64,000 bases of DNA, taken from Modicisalibacter coralii. GTDB lineage: Bacteria > Pseudomonadota > Gammaproteobacteria > Pseudomonadales > Halomonadaceae. A model generated the notes under the pieces. That model worked only from the letters and a program-made list of their open reading frames with translations, searched no databases and was not told the DNA's origin. Numbering within the stretch: the first letter of the stretch is position 1; each line of letters opens with the position of its first letter. The position numbers and the translations under genes are program-made. Shown one piece after another: positions 3,649 to 30,540 of this stretch. The DNA is taken from assembly GCF_004117855.1 (NCBI RefSeq), contig NZ_QWBW01000006.1:62001-126000 (forward strand). Direction: 5' to 3'.

Positions 3649-5562
3649 TCACTCCGCCGGCCGGGCCTGCCCGGCGGCACCGATTCGGCGTTCGATCATG
3701 CTCTCGTGGACGTCCTGCAGGCTGGCCGGGTCGTCGATGGTCGACGGCATGCCATACGCCTCGCCGTCGGCGATATTGCGCAGCAGCTTGCGCAGGATCT
3801 TGCCCGAGCGGGTCTTGGGCAGGCGCGGCACCACCAGCACCTGGTGGAGGCAGGCGATGCCGCCGATGCGTTCGCGCACCAGGGCGACCAGGGCGCGCTC
3901 GAGCGCCTCGTCATCGCCGTCGAAGCCGTCCTTGGGAATCACCAGCGCGATCGGCACCTGCCCTTTCAGCGCGTCCTGAATGCCGATCACCGCGCACTCG
4001 GCCACCGCCGGATGCGCGCCCACGACCTCTTCCATCTCGCCCGTGGACAGCCGGTGCCCCGCCACGTTGATCACGTCGTCGGTGCGCCCCATGACGAACA
4101 GATACCCGTCCTCGTCGAAATAGCCACCGTCGCCGGTCAGGTAATAGCCCGGATAGGCGGCCAGATAGGCGCGCTGGAAACGCGCCGGATCGCGCCAGAT
4201 GCCGGCCAGGCAGCCCGGCGGCAGGGGTTCGCGAATCACCACACTGCCCTGGGTGCCGGGCGCGGCCCTGTCGCCGTGCGGGTCGAGCACCTCGACGGCG
4301 TACCCCGGCACCGGCATGGTGGCCGAACCGGCCTTGGTCGGCATGGGCTCCAGGCCCTGCAGGTTGGCGGCGATCGGCCAGCCGGTCTCGGTCTGCCACC
4401 AGTGGTCGATCACCGGAATCTTCAGCAGGTCCTCGAGCCAGTAGAACGTCGGCGGATCGAGCCGCTCGCCGGCCAGGAACAGGGTGCGCAGACAGCCGAT
4501 GTCGTGCTTCTCCAGCCAGTGGCCGTCGGGATCCTCCTTCTTGATCGCCCGGAACGCCGTGGGGGCGGTGAAGAAGGCGCGAACCCGGTATTCCTCGATG
4601 AGCCGCCAGAACGCCCCGGCATTCGGCGTGCGCACGGGCTTGCCCTCGTAGACCAGCGTGGTGCAGCCGTAGATCAAGGGTGCATAGACGATATAGGAAT
4701 GCCCCACCACCCAGCCCACGTCGGAGGCCGAGAAGAACACCTCGCCGGGCGACATGCCGTAGACACGCTCCATGGAATAGTGCAGTGCCACGGCATGGCC
4801 GCCATGGTCGCGGACCACCCCCTTCGGCTTGCCGGTGGTCCCCGACGTGTAAAGAATGTAGAGCGGGTCGGTCGCCGCCACCGGGACGCACGCCGCCGGC
4901 TCGGCCGTCTCGATCACCGTGCGCCAGTCATGATCGCGATCGCCGAGTTCGGCCGTCAGCGCTTCCCGCTGCAGGATCACGCAGACCTCGGGGCGGTGGG
5001 TACTCTGCGCCAGCGCGGCGTCGAGAATCGGCTTGTAGGGAATCACCCGGTCGACCTCGACACCGCAGGAGGCGGCGATCACCACCCGCGGTTCGGCGTC
5101 GTCGATGCGTACCGCCAGTTCGTGCGCCGCGAAACCGCCGAACACCACCGAGTGCACGGCACCCAGTCGGGCACAGGCGTACATCGCGACCAGCGCCTCG
5201 GGGACCATCGACATGTAGATGACCACCCGGTCGCCCTTGGTCACGCCCAGTTCCCGCAACGCACCGGCGAATCGCGCCACCTCGTCGCGCAGTTGCCGAT
5301 AGCTCAGGGTCCGCTTGCTCCGGGTGACCGGCGAGTCCCAATGAATGGCCGGCTGATCGCCGCGCCCGGTCTCGACGTGATGGTCGAGCGCCACGTGGCA
5401 GGTATTCAGCACGCCGTCGCCGTACCAGCGCGCATGACCCTGTTCGTCATACGCGAGAATGGTCCCGGGTGGACTGAACCAGGGGATGCGCTCAGCCTGC
5501 TCCGCCCAGAAGGCAGCGGGTTCCTGGATCGCGAGTCGGTATTCGGTCTGATAGGCGCTCAT
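3649..5562 (-). CDS. prpE: Propionyl-CoA synthetase PrpE
   Basis: 637 residues, usual for PrpE (about 630). It is an acyl-AMP-forming enzyme that makes propionyl-CoA from propionate, ATP and CoA in the cytosol. Visible motifs: the ATP-binding P-loop YTSGTTGKPKGV (about 240-251), the adenylation motif WWQTETGW (about 390) and the acetylatable lysine motif PKTRSGKILRK near the C-terminus, the site through which this class is controlled by acetylation. The start at 5562 has AGGA 5-6 nt upstream. No prpBCD genes are next to it, so propionate oxidation is encoded elsewhere. Acetate as an alternative substrate cannot be excluded. Confidence 0.93.
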   Translation of the reverse strand: MSAYQTEYRLAIQEPAAFWAEQAERIPWFSPPGTILAYDEQGHARWYGDGVLNTCHVALDHHVETGRGDQPAIHWDSPVTRSKRTLSYRQLRDEVARFAGALRELGVTKGDRVVIYMSMVPEALVAMYACARLGAVHSVVFGGFAAHELAVRIDDAEPRVVIAASCGVEVDRVIPYKPILDAALAQSTHRPEVCVILQREALTAELGDRDHDWRTVIETAEPAACVPVAATDPLYILYTSGTTGKPKGVVRDHGGHAVALHYSMERVYGMSPGEVFFSASDVGWVVGHSYIVYAPLIYGCTTLVYEGKPVRTPNAGAFWRLIEEYRVRAFFTAPTAFRAIKKEDPDGHWLEKHDIGCLRTLFLAGERLDPPTFYWLEDLLKIPVIDHWWQTETGWPIAANLQGLEPMPTKAGSATMPVPGYAVEVLDPHGDRAAPGTQGSVVIREPLPPGCLAGIWRDPARFQRAYLAAYPGYYLTGDGGYFDEDGYLFVMGRTDDVINVAGHRLSTGEMEEVVGAHPAVAECAVIGIQDALKGQVPIALVIPKDGFDGDDEALERALVALVRERIGGIACLHQVLVVPRLPKTRSGKILRKLLRNIADGEAYGMPSTIDDPASLQDVHESMIERRIGAAGQARPAE

Positions 5563-26436: not shown

Positions 26437-28785
26437 CTAGAGCCCCAGCACGAGCTTGCCGCACTTCGCGCGGGAACAGCAGGTCATCATGCGCCGGTTG
26501 GCGGTTCGCTCGTCGGCGGTCAGGACCTTGTCGCGGTGGTCAACCTCGCCCGCCATGACGGCCACCTCGCAGGTACCGCACAGCCCTTCTTCACAGTCGC
26601 TGGGCACGTCGACACCGACCGCGCGCAGCGCCTGCAGCACGGTCTGGTCGGCGGCCACGGGCACGGTCAGTTCGGAGTCCGTCAGCTCCACCTCGAAGGC
26701 TTGCTCCTGGCGAGGATCGAGGATCGCCTGACCCGCGCTGAAGTGTTCAACATGGATGGCATCCGCGTCGTCCCGGGTGAGTTCCGCCAGCGCACCGAGC
26801 AGACGTTCCGGGCCACAGGCATAGACCGGGGCCTCGCCGCGTCCGGCCAGGACGGCGGGAAGGTCGAGGCGCCGTCCGGCGTCCGCGGGATACAGGTGCA
26901 GACACTCACCATGATCCCGTGTCAGACGCGCCAGCAGCGGCATGGCGGCTCGGGAACAGCCGCCGTAGTGGATGGTATAACGCTTGCCGAGCCGCTTGAG
27001 GCGATCCGCCATGGCGATGATCGGAGTAATGCCGATGCCTCCGGCGATCAACAGGTAGTCGTCGGTGGTCTCGTCCAGCCGGAAATGGTTGCGCGGGCCA
27101 CGCAGACGCACCCGGGCCTGTGGCTCGACCGTGTCATGGATGTAGCGGGAGCCGCCCCGCCCCGGTGCTTCCCGGCGGATGGCGATTTCCAGGCGATGTT
27201 CGTCGTCCGGGTCACCGCACAGGGAATACTTGCGCGTGACGTCGCCTACGGTCAGATCGATGTGGGACCCCGGCGTCCAGCGCGGCAGCGGTCGCCCGCG
27301 CGGATCTTCCAGCACCAGACGGATGACATCGGGCGTCTCGCGGATGACCCGAGTCACCACCGCCTCCCGCTCGGCATCTCGCCGGGAGGGCGCGCCCAGC
27401 GGGAAGTCGCGCCCCTGCTCACGGATCGAGCCATCGCGACGTTCGGGGTTCTGGGTCGGGTCCCAGCGCACCCACAAGTGCTCCGGGCCACGGAACGAGG
27501 TATTGGGCACGAAGCTGAACGTCTGCTCGGGAACCAGGGCCATGTGCGGCAGGCGACGCGTGAATTCTTCGAGGAAGATACGCATCTCCAGGCGGGCGAG
27601 GTTCTTGCCCATGCACTGGTGGCTGCCGTAGCCGAAGGTCAGGTGATCGGTGGTGTTGTCCCGGTAGATGTCCAGCTCGTCGGGATTCTCGAAGTGCCGG
27701 CCGTCGTGGTTGGCCGAGGCACTGACGATCAACAGCTTCGCCCCCTCGGGGATCGTCACGTCGCCGACCCGTGTATCGGTCGTGGCGATACGCCGCCAGG
27801 CGGCCACCGACCCCGACAGACGCAGGCACTCTTCGACGGCATTGGGGATCAACGACGGGTTGGCGCAGAGATCTTCCCAGACCGCGCGATTTTCCAGCAG
27901 CAGGCGCAACATGTTGGCGGTGGCATGCGCCGTGGTCTCGTGGGCGGCGACGATGCCGGCCATCATCATCGAATGCAGGTAGGAGTCGGTGACCACCTCC
28001 GGCAGCTCCTGCTGGCGGCGAATGGCGTACTTCATCCAGCCGTGGCCGGAAGGGTCCTGTCGCATCTTCTCCAGGACCTGGCCGGCATATTGCCAGAACT
28101 TGCCCACCGCCTCGGCGACGGCCACCTGCTCGTCCGGCGAGGGGCGTCCCCAGGTATTCACCGTGTGGGCAATGGAGTACTCGCGCAGCGTGTCCATGTC
28201 CTCCTCGGGCACACCGAGAAAGTGCAGCGCCACGGTCAGAGGGATTTCCCAGAGCATTTCATCGACCAGGTCCGCCTCGCCCTTGTCGACCAGCCGATCC
28301 AGATAGTCACGCGTCAGGTGCCGCACCATGGGTTCGTGATGGGCCAGCTCGTCCAGTTCGAAGGACGTCATCAGGGCGCGGCGGCGCTCCATGTGGGCCG
28401 GTTCGTCCTCGTTGACCAGGGTGCGGTTCATGGCATAGCCGTAGCGCTTGAGCGTGTCCTGTGCGGCCTGGGTGACGGGCGTGATCTTCTCCAGGGCAAT
28501 GGACGGCGAGAACGTCCGGTTGTCGCGGAAGATAGCCTTCACATCGGCGTAACGGCTGACCACCCAGTAGCCGAGCCTGGGACTGTAGAAGACCGGTTCC
28601 TGATCGCGGGACCAGCGCAGCGCCTCCGCCGGGTCCAGTTGATAGTCGCGTTCGAAGGGGTCGAACGCTGCCGCCTGCGGCGATACCGGACAGCCGTTCG
28701 GCGCGACATCGAAGGCATGAGAGGCGGAGGCGTGAAAAGGACAACGTCCCTCGTCGGCGCGCGGTGAGGTCCGGGGCGTGGGCAT
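26437..28785 (-). CDS. Self-sufficient cytochrome P450 (CYP116B-like, P450-reductase-ferredoxin fusion)
   Basis: 782 residues, about the length of P450RhF. The heme domain (about 20-445) has the I-helix acid-alcohol pair AAHETT (280-285), ExxR at 319-322 and the heme ligand Cys391 in FGYGSHQCMG. A phthalate-dioxygenase-reductase-like module follows: flavin site RKYSLCGDP (518-526), NADH site GGIGITP (582-588) and a plant-type 2Fe-2S domain with Cys731, 736, 739 and 769 (CX4CX2CX29C). It can therefore take electrons straight from NAD(P)H. Cytosolic. Clustered with a TRAP importer and a divergent IclR regulator. The substrate is unknown. Confidence 0.93.
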   Translation of the reverse strand: MPTPRTSPRADEGRCPFHASASHAFDVAPNGCPVSPQAAAFDPFERDYQLDPAEALRWSRDQEPVFYSPRLGYWVVSRYADVKAIFRDNRTFSPSIALEKITPVTQAAQDTLKRYGYAMNRTLVNEDEPAHMERRRALMTSFELDELAHHEPMVRHLTRDYLDRLVDKGEADLVDEMLWEIPLTVALHFLGVPEEDMDTLREYSIAHTVNTWGRPSPDEQVAVAEAVGKFWQYAGQVLEKMRQDPSGHGWMKYAIRRQQELPEVVTDSYLHSMMMAGIVAAHETTAHATANMLRLLLENRAVWEDLCANPSLIPNAVEECLRLSGSVAAWRRIATTDTRVGDVTIPEGAKLLIVSASANHDGRHFENPDELDIYRDNTTDHLTFGYGSHQCMGKNLARLEMRIFLEEFTRRLPHMALVPEQTFSFVPNTSFRGPEHLWVRWDPTQNPERRDGSIREQGRDFPLGAPSRRDAEREAVVTRVIRETPDVIRLVLEDPRGRPLPRWTPGSHIDLTVGDVTRKYSLCGDPDDEHRLEIAIRREAPGRGGSRYIHDTVEPQARVRLRGPRNHFRLDETTDDYLLIAGGIGITPIIAMADRLKRLGKRYTIHYGGCSRAAMPLLARLTRDHGECLHLYPADAGRRLDLPAVLAGRGEAPVYACGPERLLGALAELTRDDADAIHVEHFSAGQAILDPRQEQAFEVELTDSELTVPVAADQTVLQALRAVGVDVPSDCEEGLCGTCEVAVMAGEVDHRDKVLTADERTANRRMMTCCSRAKCGKLVLGL

Positions 28786-28837: not shown

Positions 28838-28905
28838 TAGGTAAGCCCTCGACCGGGGTCAAGGGGCGGACAGCTGAGACCCCGGGCTTTCTAGCCCAAA
28901 GTCTA

Positions 28906-29048
28906 AGAGGGTGTTTACAAATCAGGCGAGCGAAGGCAAGACAAGGCAAAATCGGCCGAAAAAGCGGAGTTTACACGGGGTAAATGAGCATTTTGAGGCC
29001 GATTTTAACGCCGTATTGTCGAGCGCAGGCATTTTGTAAACACCCTCT
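28906..29048. repeat. 143-bp MITE-like palindromic repeat, copy 2
   Basis: The same termini and fold as copy 1 (20254-20396), 137 of 143 positions identical. It ends 32 bp before the IclR start, so the iclR promoter must lie in or behind the element. If transcribed, the RNA would form a long hairpin in the iclR leader. Confidence 0.9.
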
Positions 29049-29080
29049 AAGCAGTGATTTCTGAACGGCGAGCCTGCACG

Positions 29081-29752
29081 ATGAGTCAGTTGCAAACCCT
29101 CGATCGGGGTCTCCAGGCCCTGAAGATCATCGCCCGCCACCCGGGCGGCCTGAGCATTGCCGAGCTGGCGGAAGCGCTGGGGATCAACCGGGCGATCGTC
29201 TACCGCATCGTCGCGACACTGGAGGCTAACGCCCTCGTCTATCGCCGCAAGGACGGGGCCATCTGCCTGGGCGGGGGGATTCTCGGCCTCGCCGCGCAAT
29301 TCGAGCCGCAGTTACGCAGCGTGGCCGAACCCTTGCTGCGCCGCCTGGCCCGCGAGACGAACGCCACCGCCTACCTGTCCGCCGCCCAAGGCGACGAGTG
29401 CGTAGCCTTGATGGTGGCCGAACCCGAAGAGGCATTGCTCCGGGTCGGCTACCGGGTGGGGAGCCGACACCCCCTGACCATCGGCGCCGCCGGCATTGCC
29501 ATCCTCTCGGCGCGCCCCGAGTCCGAATCGGACAGCGACGCGGTACGCGACGCTCGCCGCCAGGGCTACAGCATTACCCGCGGGCAACTTCAGCGTGGCG
29601 CCGTAGGCGTGGCCTGTCCGCTGTGCGATCCGGCATCCCGCTCGGGCTTCGAAGGCAGCGTCGGCGTCGTGGCACTGGACGACCTGGATGCCGACGCGGC
29701 GGCAAGTGCCATTCAGGCCTGTGTGGCACGACTCAACGATCTGATGGCGTGA
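29081..29752 (+). CDS. IclR-family transcriptional regulator
   Basis: 223 residues. The N-terminal winged HTH (about 5-60: LSIAELAEALGINRAIVYRIVATLEANALV) and the C-terminal IclR effector domain (about 75-220: ETNATAYLSAAQGDECVALMV, RVGSRHPLTIGAAGIAIL) are both present. I chose ATG 29081 (MSQLQTLDRGLQAL); an in-frame upstream start would enter the repeat. It is divergent from the P450-TRAP unit and is the obvious candidate for its control, with an aromatic or other organic acid as effector. Confidence 0.9.
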   Translation: MSQLQTLDRGLQALKIIARHPGGLSIAELAEALGINRAIVYRIVATLEANALVYRRKDGAICLGGGILGLAAQFEPQLRSVAEPLLRRLARETNATAYLSAAQGDECVALMVAEPEEALLRVGYRVGSRHPLTIGAAGIAILSARPESESDSDAVRDARRQGYSITRGQLQRGAVGVACPLCDPASRSGFEGSVGVVALDDLDADAAASAIQACVARLNDLMA

Positions 29753-30036
29753 CCTCATGATGCGAGAAGATCCTGGGTGGTCGGACAGTGCCGGAACGCC
29801 GGGAACCGGGACGGAGATCCTCCGCGTTACGGGAAAGCTCCAAACCGTCTCTGGGGAAACGGGGCCGGCTTGGTACGTGATGACAGCACCGCAGGCCGTT
29901 ACGTCTCGCTCGTCATCATCGGAATGGCTGAACGACTCCCCACCAAGGGCGACATCGCGGAAATCTCAGCTTGCATGCGGGTCGGTTTTGGGGAGGTCTT
30001 CGTGGCTTGAAGCGCTCAGCACACAACTCAGCACAC
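29753..30036. other. Gap after iclR-type gene
   Basis: 284 bp between the iclR stop and the terminator of the CsrB/Rsm-like RNA. Frames are open on the plus strand (29757-30095, 29777-30010) but lack family features. I see no gene here. Confidence 0.4.
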
Positions 30037-30067
30037 AAAGAGAAGGCCCACCCTCGCGGGCAGGCCT
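30036..30067 (-). terminator. Terminator of the CsrB/Rsm-like RNA
   Basis: 10-bp stem AGGCCTGCCC/GGGTGGGCCT (two wobble pairs) with a GCGA (GNRA) tetraloop, followed by TCTCTTTG on the minus strand. Confidence 0.8.
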
Positions 30068-30205
30068 CCAAGCGCTGCGTCTCCTTGCTGGCTGACCACG
30101 AACGTCCTGTTCGTGCCTCCTTGGCCTGTCGAGCCTTCCTGGCTCGTTCTTCCCTGTCAGCGATTCCTTCGCTGTACTCAGCGTAGGCCGCTAACGGGCT
30201 GCCTA
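30037..30205 (-). ncRNA. CsrB/RsmZ-type CsrA-sequestering small RNA
   Basis: About 169 nt. Three short hairpins display GGA in 5-nt loops: CAGCGA-AGGAA-TCGCTG (30174-30158), CGAGCC-AGGAA-GGCTCG (30146-30130) and CACGAAC-AGGAC-GTTCGTG (30115-30097). Four more GGA motifs lie in the single-stranded linkers (CAGGGAAG, CAAGGAGG, CAAGGAGA, TTGGAGG). A 5' hairpin GTAGGC/GCCTAC starts the RNA and an intrinsic terminator ends it. This is the architecture of CsrB, RsmY and RsmZ, which titrate the translational regulator CsrA/RsmA. No protein frame competes. Confidence 0.82.
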
Positions 30206-30233
30206 CATATAACCCAAGTTAACCATTGCGCAA
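30206..30233 (-). promoter_or_regulatory. Putative promoter of the CsrB/Rsm-like RNA
   Basis: TTGCGC (30233-30228), 16-nt spacer and TATATG (30211-30206) on the minus strand, in a locally AT-rich patch. TGTAA occurs just upstream (30240-30236), but no full GacA box (TGTAAG...CTTACA) is visible. Confidence 0.45.
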
Positions 30234-30540
30234 ATTTACAGAAAATAACCAACATAGGTTTGCCACACCCACGGCGCATCGCAGCCGGGACTGTTCGTCG
30301 CCGGCGCTTGCGGCCGGCAAAGCGTCCGCGCCGGTACGTCAGAAGCCAGTAATTGGCAGCTTTCGACACCAGGCGCGCTCTGCCTAGATCATTTCCCGTC
30401 TCTCACCCCTGCTCGCCAGGTCTTCCGGGCGACTCACGCCGGATTGCGAACAGCGTTTGAAAACCCAAATTCTCTGCTACGCTGAAGAAGCGATGCGAGA
30501 AATCGCCATCGCTGATCGTGATGTCAGGAGGTAGCATGTG
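30206..30540. other. Gap between the small RNA and the next gene
   Basis: 335 bp holding the presumed RNA promoter and upstream control DNA (AT-rich at 30206-30260), then GC-rich DNA with a GCCGGC inverted repeat near 30299. A ribosome site AGGAGGT (30526-30532) belongs to the gene at 30541. No other gene is seen. Confidence 0.5.

Follow-up and report, generated by a model that had tools for sequence, protein, structure and literature searches.

The described RNAs closest to the element reported here are CsrB and CsrC of Escherichia coli (RF00018), in which many GGA motifs likewise lie in loops and linkers together with an intrinsic terminator and whose host likewise has csrA and BarA/UvrY relatives, and the RsmX, RsmY (RF00195) and RsmZ sponges of Pseudomonas, which resemble it in size and hairpin design and have an upstream GacA-box-like site also seen in many copies of the family described below. 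Sibling sponge genes are a trait that this family has in common with several published sets. According to the excerpted report on Vibrio tasmaniensis, csrB1-4 form a four-member set, in which one copy derives from a duplication and another, functional copy does not depend on the GacA homologue (PMC6262261), and a 2020 review, as excerpted, gives nine sponges for Azotobacter vinelandii (RsmZ1-7 and RsmY1-2) and seven for P. syringae (RsmX1-5, RsmY, and RsmZ) (PMC7366521). No CsrB/Rsm-type RNA was found described in the excerpts of the open-licence literature on Halomonas, Chromohalobacter, Modicisalibacter, and Halomonadaceae. A table in the excerpted part of the same review lists the CsrA-antagonising RNA of the Halomonas anticariensis Gac system as unknown (PMC7366521), and an excerpted study that modelled CsrA of Halomonas hydrothermalis names sponge RNAs as future work (PMC12889724). 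The main text of PMC5568370 names neither Halomonas nor Chromohalobacter, and Halomonas is mentioned for an engineered PrrF1 scaffold in the excerpt of PMC13414033.

The window, a stretch of 64,000 nucleotides from the genome of Modicisalibacter coralii (G000:C6:62001-126000), carries at 30205-30037 on the minus strand an element that, judged from its sequence, very probably encodes a sponge RNA of the CsrB type. The whole explanation that we favor, to which we assign a probability of about 0.88, is that of a CsrA-titrating sponge belonging to a multiplied Halomonadaceae family; the kind of RNA is known, and its family lies below the Rfam cut-offs in the stretches tried. A preliminary description of this region had proposed three consecutive minus-strand hairpins with AGGA in five-nucleotide loops, four further GGA motifs, and a GNRA-capped intrinsic terminator, and all of these sequences were recovered at the expected places. 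Hairpin 1 (CAGCGA-AGGAA-TCGCTG) lies at 30158..30174, hairpin 2 (CGAGCC-AGGAA-GGCTCG) at 30130..30146 and hairpin 3 (CACGAAC-AGGAC-GTTCGTG) at 30097..30115, all on the minus strand. The linkers on the same strand contain CAGGGA (30151..30156), whose columns are nearly invariant in the alignment of family members introduced below (A1), CCAAGGA (30118..30124), of which the CA and GGA columns are invariant in that alignment, and GCAAGGA (30082..30088), which recurs in many of the 23 family transcripts; the fourth GGA outside the hairpins is the minus-strand TTGGAG at the foot of the terminator. The terminator itself, recognized by a terminator scan, occupies 30037..30069 on the minus strand, with a 12-bp stem, a GCGA loop (stem-loop 30069-30042), and a U tail. 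In total the RNA holds seven GGA motifs, six of them outside the terminator.

Folding of the 169 nucleotides yielded a minimum free energy (MFE) of -78.3 kcal/mol (z -4.84), a value reached by none of 200 shuffled sequences. The MFE structure displays three GGA motifs in hairpin loops, which only 3 of 400 dinucleotide shuffles equaled. Hairpins 2 and 3 are both present in it, and to this extent the hairpins proposed earlier also stand as folded structures; hairpin 1, on the other hand, is exchanged for a competing neighboring stem, and the third looped GGA is instead provided by the CCAAGGA linker, which is able to form the 3-bp hairpin GCC-AAGGA-GGC. Hairpin 1 is nonetheless supported by the comparison of family members, even though the MFE does not contain it. 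When AGGA and AGGGA were counted over the 64 kb on both strands in 5-nt steps, their density peaked at this RNA with six per 135 nt, the next highest value elsewhere being four. The count of GGA alone is unexceptional, since six in the 135-nt core compare with a shuffle mean of 3.9 and 144 of 1000 dinucleotide shuffles were as high.

The Rfam Csr-clan models, which the preliminary description had suggested running, all stayed below their gathering scores, both on the window and on 20 stretches that contain family loci; consequently, the family could be added to Rfam. The best Csr-clan model on the window was RsmY, with 13.5 bits against a cut-off of 57 (E 1). Among the stretches of 14 family loci, the CsrB model RF00018 matched one, L139 (G010:C27), with 35.2 bits and an E-value of 2.5e-6 (cut-off 71), and RsmY gave weak matches to L178 (25.3 bits, E 0.022) and L114 (20.4 bits, E 0.51). 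Weak matches to models outside the clan, such as FTX_5, mir-557, Ms_AS-8, sR23, anti-hemB, SorX, and others, were taken as chance. In the opposite direction, a covariance model built from Halomonadaceae sequences only (R1) was run on the window together with 23 kb from E. coli K-12, and besides the window RNA its sole matches with E below 1 were two inside the annotated csrB gene and on the same strand (15.5 bits, E 0.015; 11.1 bits, E 0.24). Together with the covariation reported below, this match and that of RF00018 to L139 support the earlier proposal of a CsrA-titrating design. The host is equipped accordingly, as the M. coralii genome encodes one csrA (93.5 bits), a relative of UvrY/GacA with 53% identity (C7:229191), and a relative of BarA with 35% identity over query residues 181-905 (approximately 725 residues; C9:99303).

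The window RNA, at approximately 165 nt and with seven GGA motifs, is considerably smaller than E. coli CsrB, which has 22 GGA motifs in 369 nt. This difference lends some weight to the idea that the RNA binds CsrA and yet acts mainly as an ordinary regulated or base-pairing small RNA rather than as a sponge, because the few sites (six GGA motifs outside the terminator) imply a modest titration capacity. RsmX/Y/Z-type sponges are, however, of similar size, and the invariant columns of A1, which comprises 23 sequences, fall mostly within the GGA motifs and the stem of hairpin 3; we thus regard the ordinary small RNA as improbable and retain the sponge.

To trace the family, 58 genomes were searched by DNA similarity, which returned 25 places in 10 genomes including that of M. 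coralii, where a second copy (G000:C21) is 81% identical over approximately 124 bases. A MAFFT alignment (A1) was prepared from 23 of the 25 similarity loci after dropping L010 and L024, which by eye looked like chance matches outside such RNAs; conservation in the 3' half of A1 is partly a product of selection, because the 3' half of the window RNA had served as the query by which these loci were found. In A1, 99.4% of the hairpin 3 cells are paired, with two-sided changes in four of the seven pairs, and the covariation score of the whole structure exceeded 500 of 500 shuffles as well as all slid controls; one of the five covariation measures, that of further pair types, was not clearly above the shuffles (42 and 28 of 500). 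The R1 model matched at least 105 places in at least 18 of the 58 genomes at E up to 0.01, these counts being lower bounds given that the best 76 candidates per genome were scored. In a second alignment fitted to the model (A2, 95 model matches), 86.6% of the cells are paired and two-sided changes occur in 18 of 18 pairs. It is here that hairpin 1 finds its comparative backing, with 77.7% of its helix paired and two-sided changes in five of five pairs in A2, against 48-54% paired in A1. The retention of folds with looped GGA motifs in relatives, on whose failure the sponge reading was to fall according to the preliminary description, is accordingly well documented by hairpin 3 and by A2. The window RNA scored 85.2 bits with R1 and 82.1 bits with a wider model (R2), values that are not independent as its sequence is part of both models.

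The family has been seen, among the genomes searched, in Halomonadaceae only. Among the matches listed, R1 had none in the 21 genomes that belong to other families of the order. R2, for which the best 16 candidates per genome were scored so that its counts are again lower bounds, matched at least 136 of 275 Halomonadaceae genomes at E up to 0.001 and, under strict filters and among the matches listed, none in the other 139. In a collection covering 84,980 species, an exact pattern for hairpin 3 occurred in 56 stretches, all 56 from Halomonas, Modicisalibacter, Vreelandella, Billgrantia, Litchfieldella, Chromohalobacter, or a bacterium labeled as Halomonadaceae; NCBI places Modicisalibacter, Vreelandella, Billgrantia, Litchfieldella, and Chromohalobacter in that family. 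Within the genus Modicisalibacter itself, five genomes (G004, G006, G008, G011, and G012) possess csrA and a UvrY relative and gave no model match under strict filters with the best 76 candidates per genome, and their sponge RNAs, if any, must either differ or have escaped the filters. After neighbors were merged, 101 of the 105 R1 matches constituted 96 loci, the remaining four (22.5-24.4 bits) being left out. By a strict rule, 71 of these 96 loci have an intrinsic terminator, compared with 4.7% of stretches drawn at random from the window; a relaxed version of the test was discarded for its background of 43%.

The window RNA is intergenic, and no open reading frame (ORF) with a Pfam match covers it, in agreement with the earlier statement that no protein gene explains the stretch. 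On one side lie an IclR regulator gene (29054-29752, plus strand), a P450-reductase fusion gene (26437-28785, minus strand), and a neighboring gene for a DctP protein (minus strand), all assigned by Pfam matches, and on the opposite side a 108-aa ORF without a Pfam match. A 112-aa plus-strand ORF (29757-30095) overlaps the 3' end of the RNA and thereby offers a role as an antisense transcript; the leader or attenuator of a downstream mRNA is a further reading of the element. We consider both highly improbable: the RNA closes with an intrinsic terminator, the next Pfam-matching minus-strand gene, that of the P450 fusion, follows only approximately 1.25 kb on, past the plus-strand IclR gene, no Pfam family matched the overlapping ORF, and, in the seven loci with ORFs listed, copies of the family adjoin different genes, apart from orthologous groups. 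Between the IclR and P450 genes, at 28903-29052, there is a dispersed palindromic repeat of approximately 150 bp, bounded by 16-bp terminal inverted repeats (AGAGGGTGTTTACAAA) and with a fold z of -9.1, which, with seven candidates scored, recurs with 93-99% identity at at least six other places of the M. coralii genome and with approximately 80-95% identity in many Halomonadaceae genomes, and which looks like a miniature inverted-repeat element.

The preliminary description had also pointed to TTGCGC-N16-TATATG as promoter-like. Although this sequence does exist at 30233-30206, it was not listed by a sigma-70 consensus scan and is not what the copies share, and we replaced it by TAACNNNNGTTA followed by TTATAT, which is preferred because it is common to the copies. 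In the window, this promoter consists of the palindrome TAACTTGGGTTA at 30210..30221 and a -10-like TTATAT at 30212-30207, both on the minus strand, and the 5' end of the RNA would lie at approximately 30200. Palindromes resembling TAACNNNNGTTA were found 42-50 nt upstream of the model start in 43 of the 96 merged loci, compared with 0.1% of random places; the invariance of their AAC and GTT columns is a consequence of selection, the 43 copies having been chosen for the palindrome. Among these 43, the core promoter of the window copy ranked seventh by leave-one-out score (21.2; maximum 22.0). The promoter core passed the 1% background threshold in 77 of the 96 loci (16 of 18 in M. luteus and three of five in M. 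coralii), and since the matrix was trained on the 43 palindrome loci, the 34 passes among the other 53 may be read separately. The palindrome alone carries no genome-wide signal in M. coralii, with 14 sites per strand and the same number for the control, and is for this reason informative only in combination with the box or the RNA.

Such a box was sought with a consensus that we take to be that of the GacA box, which the family box resembles; binding of GacA to the latter would be expected from this resemblance. Placements of 21-34 nt were scanned, and 25 of the 43 palindrome loci have a box with at least 8 of 12 matches, which in 24 of the 25 precedes the palindrome by exactly 26 nt, counted from the start of the box. 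Across the 58 genomes, the combined pattern of box and palindrome, with up to three mismatches, occurred at 47 sites against eight for the reversed pattern, and for 36 of the 47 (11 of 13 in M. luteus) a model locus on the same strand follows 30-39 nt downstream. The element TAACNNNNGTTA between box and start may distinguish the family from RsmX/Y/Z, and the promoter palindrome, along with the high locus numbers of some Halomonadaceae genomes, sets it apart from CsrB/CsrC. In the window copy the box is displaced: its GacA-box-like site TGTTGGTTATTTTCTGTA (30237..30254, minus strand) lies 33 nt upstream of the palindrome rather than 26, a shift of 7 bp. This site scored 11.3 as the best of approximately 73 placements, in relation to which it should be considered that the random 99th percentile of 0.8 applies to one placement and that the window copy is among the 43 training sequences; the usual 26-nt position scored -0.7. 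The C21 copy and the copies similar to it in G002 (C41) and G003 (3168044) have no good box either, with 5 of 12 matches each.

Two additional settings of this promoter are worth recording. In L118 (1096-2101; M. coralii C18:284495), the palindrome TAACCTGGGTTA stands approximately 150 bp before a protein ORF that starts at 1252 and reaches the locus end without closing (MALQGFDKDYYLNAK...), with a leader containing GGGA and AGGA hairpins and AAAGGAGCAGGA ahead of the start codon; this ORF may be a target of CsrA under a promoter like that of the family. Box and palindrome promoters are also found before ORFs that by eye resemble membrane proteins, near sponge loci (G005:C4:47180, G001:C11:989947, and G010:C25:52100), and these are possibly protein members of the same regulon.

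The displaced box leads to the question of how old and how active the window copy is. The adjacent IclR gene is 90-91% identical in G002 and G003, where, among the seven candidates scored per genome, similarity stops at the end of the IclR gene, and R1 had no family copy at this locus among the matches listed; the window copy is therefore not conserved by position. Its closest sibling is the C21 copy of the same genome, and it looks young. The same observations are compatible with a decaying duplicate, that is, a family member by origin devoid of useful transcription because its activator site is displaced (33 against 26 nt, the usual placement scoring -0.7) and relatives do not retain the copy at this place. 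Decay nevertheless sits poorly with a core promoter ranking seventh of 43, with intact stem-loops and terminator, and with the position of this copy as the top model match in its own genome, albeit for a sequence contained in both models, and the excerpted Vibrio report offers the precedent of a functional csrB copy independent of the GacA homologue (PMC6262261). We consequently judge decay to be unlikely, if the likeliest of the competing accounts, and hold to an active sponge.

The mechanism that we envisage for this sponge is as follows. An untranslated RNA of approximately 165 nt would be made from the minus strand, with its 5' end near 30200 and its 3' end at 30042-30037, and its AGGA loops and linker GGA motifs would bind CsrA dimers. 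When abundant, the RNA would draw CsrA off mRNA leaders and thereby release CsrA-repressed genes. Copies with a well-placed box would be expected to be switched on by GacS/GacA, whereas control of the window copy is probably weak or different because its box is displaced. The family as a whole would represent sponges duplicated many times.

This amplification would be the surprising part of the system. The model loci number at least 18 in M. luteus (G005), at least 14 in G001, at least 12 in G010, at least 11 in Litchfieldella xinjiangensis (G027), at least eight in G035, at least seven in G009, at least six in G003, at least five in each of G002 and M. coralii, at least three in G007, at least two in G023, and at least one in each of five others. 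In most other Halomonadaceae genomes the loci are fewer, often one to four, as counted by R2 with the best 16 candidates per genome. The four highest counts exceed the published sets found, at least in their excerpted descriptions (four, nine, and seven members in Vibrio, Azotobacter, and P. syringae, hence up to nine), so that the question of why bacteria keep many sibling sponges becomes testable in one genus, whose sibling copies vary in their promoters, their lengths, and their counts of predicted binding sites. Furthermore, as Halomonas anticariensis is now named under Litchfieldella, the loci of its congener L. xinjiangensis make the gap in the review table directly testable.

Growth can also be followed within single loci and clusters. 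Four family loci lie within 3 kb in G010. On contig C35 of M. coralii (L114, 2993-3290), a 68-bp GGA-hairpin unit is repeated 4.4 times at 94%, and a second GGA-hairpin stretch follows the tandem array ahead of the final terminator; the resulting RNA would carry 31 GGA motifs in approximately 394 nt, compared with 22 in 369 nt in E. coli csrB. L150 of G003, which ends in the same terminator as the C35 locus, has one unit by eye, and the C35 copy appears to have grown in place through tandem repeats. In the M. coralii genome, R2 pointed to weaker extra places, among them one at C29:95224 (E 7e-4) and a pair on contig C28 (E 0.02 and 0.5), which by eye look like GGA-hairpin RNAs with terminators.

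Sponge copies also adjoin genes of the Csr system itself. One csrA gene was found in 32 of the 37 family genomes examined, three in each of G001 and G005, and two in G010, and in these last three genomes one or two of the csrA genes stand divergently beside a model locus, the nearer csrA being 159-165 bp away. These csrA-sponge loci have flanking genes in common and thus point to one event or a few rather than three. In G009, a family copy lies 396 bp from the UvrY relative. The copy number of csrA correlated with that of the sponges (Spearman 0.46, p 0.004, 37 family genomes; counts of merged loci, with raw R1 match counts for G013, G014, G016, and G031), a relationship to be taken with caution because the genomes share ancestry and G034, with two csrA genes, gave no model match. 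For nine genomes with 5 to 18 loci each (G000-G003, G005, G009, G010, G027, and G035), most of whose loci carry their own promoter core and terminator, it may be, at even odds in our estimate, that the Csr system in this part of the Halomonadaceae constitutes a distributed, dosage-tuned sponge array; as copies keep, shift, or lose the GacA box, many inputs would then feed one RNA-binding protein. In the surroundings of the csrA-sponge loci L240, L241, and L242 we observed genes resembling by eye those of ring-hydroxylating oxygenases and DctP, accompanied in L240 and L241 by genes resembling an RsbQ-type hydrolase and a regulator. Separately, the stretch L115 from C21 of M. coralii contains at 4529-4703 a yybP-ykoY manganese riboswitch (47.4 bits; cut-off 45).
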